A stretch of DNA of 64,000 nucleotides from NCBI GenBank assembly GCA_903899885.1, contig CAIULK010000152.1:1-64000 (forward strand). Direction: 5' to 3'. Below are positions 9,471 through 44,171 of this stretch, piece by piece; position 1 is the stretch's first letter, and each line of letters starts with the position of its first letter. A program made the position numbers and the translations under genes. The notes under the pieces are model-generated. The model was not told the origin of the DNA, did not search any database, and saw only the letters and a program-made list of their open reading frames with translations. Origin of the DNA: an uncultured Rhodospirillaceae bacterium (GTDB lineage Bacteria; Pseudomonadota; Alphaproteobacteria; Rhodospirillales; Magnetospirillaceae).

Positions 9471-9503
9471 GCGGCCAAGGGCGCGGACGCGCCCGCCCGG
9501 CGA
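9471..9503 (+). repeat. dispersed GC-rich palindromic repeat, copy A
   Basis: Begins GCGGCCAAGGGCGCGGACGC and ends CCCGGCGAGGG. The core GGGCGCG-GA-CGCGCCC is a perfect hairpin. It lies between the convergent antiporter and lrgB genes. Two related copies are at 17881-17914 (minus orientation) and 18842-18875. Confidence 0.6.
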
Positions 9504-17880: not shown

Positions 17881-17914
17881 CTCGCCGGGCGCGCGCCTCC
17901 GCGCGCTTGGCCGC
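17881..17914 (-). repeat. dispersed GC-rich palindromic repeat, copy B
   Basis: On the minus strand this reads GCGGCCAAGCGCGCGGAGGC and ends GCGCCCGGCGAG, closely matching copy A at 9471 and copy C at 18842. It lies between the chemoreceptor and ubiE. Confidence 0.6.
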
Positions 17915-18745: not shown

Positions 18746-18875
18746 CCGACGAACACGACGTGTTCGTTGGACCGCCGCGACCGCGGCGGCGCGCCCGTCG
18801 GCTTCGCCGACAGTCGTATGACTGCACGCGTGCGGGGCACGGGAGCCAAGCGCGCGGACGCGTGCGCCCGGCGAT
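18746..18875. repeat. hairpin-dense ubiE-ubiB intergenic region
   Basis: At least five separate inverted repeats lie in tandem: ACGAACACG/CGTGTTCGT (18749-18767), CCGCCGCG/CGCGGCGG (18772-18789), GTCGGC/GCCGAC (18797-18811), CAGTC/GACTG (18811-18824), and CGTGC/GCACG (18829-18841). Repeat copy C completes the block. None has a T tract. Confidence 0.65.
18842..18875 (+). repeat. dispersed GC-rich palindromic repeat, copy C
   Basis: Reads GGAGCCAAGCGCGCGGACGC and ends GTGCGCCCGGCGAT, related to copies at 9471 and 17881. Its right edge adjoins the ubiB leader. Both copies A and C are followed within 20 bases by AATTAAC. Confidence 0.55.
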
Positions 18876-43586: not shown

Positions 43587-43613
43587 TCGAACCCAGCGGT
43601 TTACCACGAGGGG

Positions 43614-43642
43614 AAGGGCGGCTTCGGCCGCCCTTTCTTTTT
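43614..43642 (+). terminator. Rho-independent terminator of the porin gene
   Basis: GGGCGGC (43616-43622), TTCG tetraloop, GCCGCCC (43627-43633), then TTTCTTTTT. This is a canonical strong terminator. Confidence 0.93.
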
Positions 43643-43657
43643 GTGTCCCATGTGTGC

Positions 43658-43722
43658 CCCTCTCTCGCCTTGCGGGAGAGGGAGGGGCCCGTCGCCGCAG
43701 GCGATGGGAGGGTGAGGGAGCC
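43658..43722 (+). repeat. left 65-bp inverted-repeat arm flanking the DUF559 gene
   Basis: Contains TGCGGGAGAGGGAGGGGCCC and GCGATGGGAGGGTGAGGGAG. It is about 90% identical to the reverse complement of 44106-44171 (roughly 59 of 66 aligned positions, one single-base gap). Each arm also has its own internal hairpins (CTCTC/GAGAG and an ATCGC-type stem in the right arm). Confidence 0.85.
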
Positions 43723-43748
43723 GCGCGCACGTCGGCTCCCATTACGCG

Positions 43749-44099
43749 ATGCTCTTGCCGATGGCCGACACGACGCCCCGCCAACTTCGCACCACCTCGA
43801 CCGAGGCCGAGCGACGCCTCTGGTCGGTTCTGCGCGGTCGCCGATTGGGTGGGTTCAAGTTCCGCCGTCAGCATCCGTTCGACCGCTATATTCTGGATTT
43901 TGCTTGCGTCGAAGGCCTGTTGGCGGTGGAAGCCGATGGCAGCCAGCATTGCGGCAGCGCAGGCGACGAAACGCGCACCAATATCCTGGGGCGTCATGGC
44001 TGGCGCGTATTGCGCTTTTGGAATTCCGACATTCTCACGAATACCGTCGGCGTGAGCGAGGAGATTCTGAGGGTTCTGAGGGAACGGGTGCATGACTGA
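43749..44099 (+). CDS. DUF559 (Vsr-like PD-(D/E)XK fold) nuclease-like protein
   Basis: A 116-residue protein of the DUF559 family, related to very-short-patch-repair endonucleases. The core reads TEAERRLWSVLRGRRLGGFK, FRRQHPFDRYILDFACVEGL, then LAVEADGSQH; the D and E-x-D of this pattern are the expected catalytic carboxylates. The C-terminus (GWRVLRFWNSDILTN) is also typical. No Shine-Dalgarno is clear; ATG 43761 is an alternative start. It sits precisely between two long inverted repeats. No methylase or mismatch-repair gene is adjacent. Confidence 0.88.
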   Translation: MLLPMADTTPRQLRTTSTEAERRLWSVLRGRRLGGFKFRRQHPFDRYILDFACVEGLLAVEADGSQHCGSAGDETRTNILGRHGWRVLRFWNSDILTNTVGVSEEILRVLRERVHD

Positions 44100-44105
44100 G
44101 CCGGT

Positions 44106-44171
44106 GGCTCCCTCACCCTCCCATCGCCTGTAAGCGATGGGCCCCTCCCTCTCCCGCGACGCGGGAGAGGG
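44106..44171 (-). repeat. right 66-bp inverted-repeat arm flanking the DUF559 gene
   Basis: The reverse complement carries CGCGGGAGAGGGAGGGGCCC and GCGATGGGAGGGTGAGGGAG, matching the left arm at 43658-43722. It begins seven bases after the DUF559 stop codon and ends about 75 bases before the TPR/OGT gene. Confidence 0.85.

Follow-up and report, generated by a model that had tools for sequence, protein, structure and literature searches.

The window analyzed here, a 64,000-nucleotide stretch of contig CAIULK010000152.1 from an uncultured Rhodospirillaceae bacterium, raises the question of what a small nuclease gene is doing between two long inverted repeats, and whether gene and repeats make up a single element. 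The repeats, hereafter called arms, lie at 43658-43722 and 44106-44171 and are 89% reverse-complementary over 66 nt, close to the roughly 90% estimated in an earlier, sequence-only reading of this DNA. When the two flanks of the gene were compared with each other by blastn, an 89-nt inverted repeat was obtained (E = 3e-18). Outward from the gene, both arms have the same layout, consisting of a head (CCCTCACCC), a variable inner hairpin (H1), and an outer hairpin (H2) of the form CCCTCTCCCGC-loop-GCGGGAGAGGG. The features of the locus are as follows:

43658..43722, minus strand, left arm: putative PIT/TM-type REP-like repeat, head towards the gene; 89% reverse-complementary to the right arm
43658..43682, minus strand, left outer hairpin H2 (CCCTCTCCCGC / GCGAGAGAGGG): one stem mismatch
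43688..43708, minus strand, left inner variable hairpin H1: H1-type inserts elsewhere are variable palindromes
43710..43718, minus strand, left head CCCTCACCC: identical head beside most DUF559 genes
43749..44099 (stop codon included), plus strand, DUF559 gene, 116 aa: predicted Vsr/EDxHD-type PD-(D/E)XK nuclease; Pfam PF04480, with matching AlphaFold model
44106..44171, plus strand, right arm: putative PIT/TM-type REP-like repeat, head towards the gene; fold z -5.9
44110..44118, plus strand, right head CCCTCACCC
44120..44141, plus strand, right inner variable hairpin H1
44147..44171, plus strand, right outer hairpin H2

Folded as single-stranded DNA and scored against shuffled sequences, the right arm reached z = -5.9 and the left arm, which carries stem mismatches, z = -2.8. 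A porin terminator hairpin (approximately 43610-43640) is located immediately outside the left arm. The arms matched no family in an Rfam search.

As the earlier reading had it, the arms enclose one intact gene. Translation could alternatively begin at an internal ATG (43764). The encoded protein matched the Pfam HMM for DUF559 (PF04480) over residues 9-110 with an E-value of 3e-35 and 120.7 bits, compared to a cut-off of 20.6. It carries the PD-(D/E)XK-type residues expected of a DUF559 member, with E21, D50, E61, D63, H67, D73, and R76 all present and invariant or nearly so in an alignment of 46 proteins. Its AlphaFold model (mean pLDDT 82) was matched to NGO0050 of Neisseria gonorrhoeae, a solved DUF559 structure (PDB 3hrl; Z 16.9, 53% identical), to the catalytic domain of the homing endonuclease I-Bth0305I (PDB 3r3p; Z 13.2), and to Escherichia coli Vsr (PDB 1cw0 and 1vsr; Z 10.4). 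Based on the modeled likeness to I-Bth0305I, the window protein is predicted to have the Vsr-like EDxHD catalytic fold. The likeness to I-Bth0305I and Vsr is one of modeled fold, at 20-25% sequence identity. The window gene differs from those of EDxHD homing endonucleases and Vsr in being free-standing between hairpin repeats, neither located in an intron nor adjacent to a cytosine methyltransferase in the neighborhood of the window that was read. A DUF559 protein of Caulobacter, VsrA, has been reported to be Vsr-like, SOS-induced, and tied to cytosine methylation (PMC12907096); repeats are not discussed alongside VsrA in the passages considered here.

Flanking repeats are found around DUF559 genes well beyond the window. 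In the window's family, sampled with 55 genomes that include Paramagnetospirillum as judged from matching contigs, most short DUF559 genes are tightly bounded by inverted repeats. A scan of 84,980 species genomes resulted in 80 loci, most of them in Alpha-, Beta-, and Gammaproteobacteria; Planctomycetes and Chloroflexi contributed one bin each. A gene was counted as flanked if the 250 bp on each side contained an inverted repeat at an E-value of 1e-3 or lower, thresholds that miss diverged arms. Inverted repeats flanked 58 of 76 DUF559 genes, compared to 25 of 2065 same-size windows elsewhere in the same loci. Because this first collection may be biased by similarity to the window, a second sample was drawn by profile search from 144 alphaproteobacterial genomes, mostly one per family. 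Of its 60 small DUF559 genes, 40 were flanked (1 of 349 controls), with the heads pointing mostly towards the gene. Approximately one quarter to one third of DUF559 genes have no flanking inverted repeat at this threshold. The two arms of a gene are more alike than the arms of different genes (median scores 29 versus 14), and arm similarity tracks protein similarity when the distal flanks are controlled for (partial r 0.27, versus at most 0.17 in 300 permutations). The sequence inserted at H1 is left free by the search pattern; in 43 of 65 cases it contains a perfect stem of at least 5 (4.8 when shuffled), and 26 different stem sequences are represented, which points to conservation of pairing rather than of sequence. 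Phages and plasmids carrying DUF559 genes amount to 2 phages and 20 plasmid records, the latter chiefly of very large replicons, and spread by phages or plasmids was rejected on account of this rarity.

The arm motif itself also travels with the gene. Written as CCCTCACCC N2-32 CCCTCTCCC, the pattern is present in 38 of the 144 alphaproteobacterial genomes; read backwards, it has one occurrence in total in the same genomes. Motif and gene are both present in 30 genomes, the motif only in 8, the gene only in 8, and neither in 98 (Fisher 1.6e-16). The gene was found in 21 of 22 genomes with at least five motif copies and in 17 of the 122 others or, when only genomes of at least 3 Mb were considered, in 18 of 19 versus 13 of 48; all of these co-occurrence counts may be partly confounded by shared ancestry and G+C content. 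Another 155 genomes from the phylum gave 28 with both, 10 with the motif only, 8 with the gene only, and 109 with neither (1.4e-15), and outside Alphaproteobacteria the numbers are 13, 10, 3, and 95 (5e-9); this phylum sample covers families less evenly than the alphaproteobacterial one, and its p-values are therefore optimistic. No association with the motif was seen for Y1/RAYT-type transposases (6 of 22 versus 30 of 122, p = 0.79), and the Y1_Tnp profile had no match in the window's own genome (G000). The correspondence has exceptions on both sides, as some DUF559 carriers lack the exact motif pattern, and G088, five genomes of the phylum sample, and also G007 are rich in the motif without a small DUF559 gene. 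G007, G088, G210, and G237, with many motif copies and no small DUF559 gene found, are candidates for gene loss after amplification.

Orthologous sites in sister species indicate that arms and gene form a unit. The gap between yejB and yejE is 0-10 nt in most sister species; in two genomes (G047 and G048), an arm-gene-arm cassette lies exactly between the two genes, and a third (G040) has a lone hairpin there. Between metF and metH, a cassette is present in G021, G029, G033, G040, G044, and G048, as well as in G009, where it runs to the contig end, and is absent from approximately 20 relatives, several of which have unrelated repeats or a short spacer at the site. Homologous cassettes are thus wholly present or wholly absent, which bears out the earlier view of the unit as a cassette. 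Most empty sites at both loci carry neither arm, so the arms were gained or lost along with the gene. The seven metF-metH carriers belong to three genera and their proteins form one clade (95/91), such that one old insertion followed by losses is the simplest account there, and the distribution could reflect one gain and many losses. Inspection by eye revealed no target-site duplication at either of these two sites, although their flanks have diverged, and no movement was observed. The porin-OGT interval of the window itself had no usable relative, the best family match of the OGT protein being 53% identical over part of the protein. The E. coli ycjD locus was rejected as an empty-site test because the alternative allele carries the published eefRABCD operon (PMC12817139). 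Other long inverted repeats, such as ACCACGAAGGCGCGAAGGCACG and CCACAGAGACACAGAGACACAGAG, were seen at metF-metH or yejB-yejE in sister species (L165, L166, L176, L182, L191, L259, L264, and L268), and these gene boundaries therefore tolerate several kinds of repeat.

The sequence-only reading had also expected arms without the gene to exist elsewhere as non-autonomous copies, and had named arms unique in the genome as an outcome that would speak against the proposal. Gene-less copies do occur in many other genomes, whereas in the window's own genome (3.44 Mb in 269 contigs) no full arms were found besides the window's two, so that the arms are indeed unique there; two further matches, on contigs C86 and C109, are plain hairpins without a head. 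Pairs of the motif without a gene are common, in either relative orientation. Such gene-less neighbors within 130 nt face each other head-to-head, the arrangement seen around the gene, in G066 (5 of 5), G094 (9 of 9), G191, and G131, and mostly tail-to-tail in G083, G102, and G117. In G337, at least eight head-to-head pairs share a constant spacing of approximately 100 nt and common ends (GCGCGGGATCCCC / GGGGATCCCGCGC), and these pairs sit inside other repeated DNA. Truncated or interrupted DUF559 genes were likewise found between two motif copies, for example at G066:C1:1222202-1222366 and G275:C4:353065-353371. In G029 (L046, L145-L158), approximately 15 near-identical copies of a ~300-bp element with ends CACGGCTGTCCGGTTTAA and its own terminal repeats contain the motif. 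This element is a second vehicle amplifying the motif, and G029 was accordingly rejected as a source of recent element copies. A palindromic repeat unlike the arms, TCGCCGGGCGCGCGCCTCCGCGCGCTTGGC, is located in the window at 9474-9503 (minus strand), 17882-17911 (plus strand), and 18845-18874 (minus strand); with at least ~40 copies in the window's own genome and no evident link to DUF559, it looks like the main REP family of that genome.

A known repeat resembles the arms. TM_ECO, also called PIT, is an intrastrand-triplex motif of E. coli with 23 copies in MG1655 that has been reported from over 260 genomes (Holder et al. 2015, PMC4666352). Its motif, in E. coli CCCTCACCCTAACCCTCTCCC plus a hairpin (Table 1 of that paper), is matched by the window arms, and it too is intergenic, present in many genomes, and sometimes found as inverted pairs of two subtypes. 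The window arms differ by the extra hairpin H1 between head and outer hairpin: both contain the CCCTCTCCC hairpin and a one-sided GGGTGAGGG-type third strand, with H1 interposed. By motif, the arms can thus be assigned to the PIT/TM intrastrand-triplex type. The authors of that study stated that no mobility-providing activities had ever been found near TM_ECO/PIT, and YcjD and DUF559 go unmentioned. Copy 9 of TM_ECO (MG1655 1,351,204-1,351,239; L064 7205-7240) falls in the interval that separates fabI from the DUF559 gene of E. coli, ycjD (1,351,407-1,351,760). It is 168 bp downstream of ycjD, and its head points away from that gene. In Kluyvera, a head-in motif copy directly follows the DUF559 gene. 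The N. gonorrhoeae gene for the NGO0050 protein type (locus L315, approximately 1501-1830) has a ~57-nt TM-like repeat on both sides, the two copies being direct and those of the window inverted. No report of a DUF559-repeat link was found in the literature searched, the coverage of which left subscription journals and bioRxiv largely outside.

The organization of the cassette recalls that of REPIN/RAYT systems, in which RAYT is a REP-associated tyrosine transposase (PMC3116915, PMC3733652). Both have short, tagged hairpin repeats, often in inverted pairs, with gene-less copies elsewhere and a low-copy chromosomal nuclease gene that has repeats on its flanks. Like RAYT genes, the DUF559 gene is mostly chromosomal, of low copy number, and subject to long vertical inheritance. 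Many relatives have tagged hairpins in inverted pairs in many copies per genome, and the window's own genome has only the two arms flanking the gene. The earlier description of the arms as REP-like is supported by these comparisons. The two systems differ in that the tag is CCCTCACCC here and GTAG there, and in that the enclosed gene encodes a PD-(D/E)XK nuclease (DUF559) rather than the HUH Y1 enzyme that is RAYT, Y1 genes showing no co-occurrence with the motif. Lacking both the GTAG tag and a linked RAYT gene, the cassette was not categorized as REPIN/RAYT; by analogy, it would work in a similar manner with a nuclease of a different family.

We therefore favor, with a probability of roughly 0.6, a reading of the cassette as the gene-bearing form of a REP-like element, resembling REPIN/RAYT with the DUF559 nuclease in place of the RAYT transposase. 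In such an element, two PIT/TM-type repeats with heads inward would bound a gene for a nuclease of the Vsr/EDxHD fold. The nuclease may recognize the structured arms, that is, head plus hairpin in extruded or single-stranded form, and nick or cut at them, after which host repair or replication would copy the arm-bounded unit into new intergenic sites; gene-less derivatives would be copied likewise in trans. The association, the architecture of the unit, and its presence or absence at orthologous sites are observed; recognition, cutting, and copying by the nuclease are inferred.

The main rival supposes that the repeat pairs existed beforehand and were spread by other means, and that the DUF559 nuclease homes, cutting empty pairs and copying itself into them by recombination through the arms. 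The gene is always inside the repeat pair, gene-less head-to-head pairs are common, and, DUF559 aside, the closest modeled fold is that of the I-Bth0305I homing endonuclease domain, all of which fit homing. We nonetheless consider it unlikely, as most empty sites at yejB-yejE and metF-metH hold no repeat pair, or indeed any arm, and the two arms of each gene are closer to each other than to those of other genes. More doubtful again is a domesticated, housekeeping role, in which a Vsr-like or structure-specific repair nuclease counters hairpin or triplex repeats or deaminated cytosines and is kept beside repeats without moving them. Such a role would explain neither why both arms hug the gene nor the clean presence or absence of the whole unit within the yejB-yejE operon, even though the reported properties of VsrA, the retention of the metF-metH gene as one clade across three genera, and the rarity of these genes on plasmids and phages agree with it; the residue numbering of VsrA suggests a longer protein.

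Two further explanations were considered. If another transposase, either a RAYT or that of an IS, moved the repeats, the nuclease gene would merely have been caught between two copies, and the amplification of the motif in G029 within a ~300-bp element with its own terminal repeats provides a precedent. That the same gene family should have been caught in many lineages, by arms of differing sequence, makes this highly improbable, and its RAYT-driven version was rejected because Y1 transposases have no association with the motif. The arms might also be no more than ordinary terminators acting in both directions, or hairpins arisen by chance in G+C-rich intergenic DNA, given that their hairpins are intergenic and rich in G+C and that the porin terminator precedes the left arm. 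Against this stand the rarity of such pairs in control windows of the same loci (25/2065 and 1/349), the near absence of the backwards pattern, found once, and the head CCCTCACCC and its orientation, which are not features of terminators; a terminator-only reading is refuted as a full explanation, and we regard this possibility as negligible.

The recurrence of the arrangement across many bacteria that also carry scattered copies of the repeats points to a dedicated enzyme for an "orphan" repeat that is widespread in bacteria. PIT/TM repeats, including those of E. coli, had been described without an associated mobility function, and DUF559 is a large family without an assigned role; brought together, each provides the other with a partner that can be tested. 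The broader proposal, that PIT/TM repeats are REP-like mobile elements propagated by their own DUF559 nuclease, by a route that needs no HUH transposase and is widespread in Pseudomonadota, appears to us about evenly balanced. If the nuclease only processes the repeats, a Vsr-like enzyme would be connected with DNA that forms triplexes and with the instability that has been reported near these motifs. If it spreads them, REP-like systems would have evolved around two or more unrelated nucleases.
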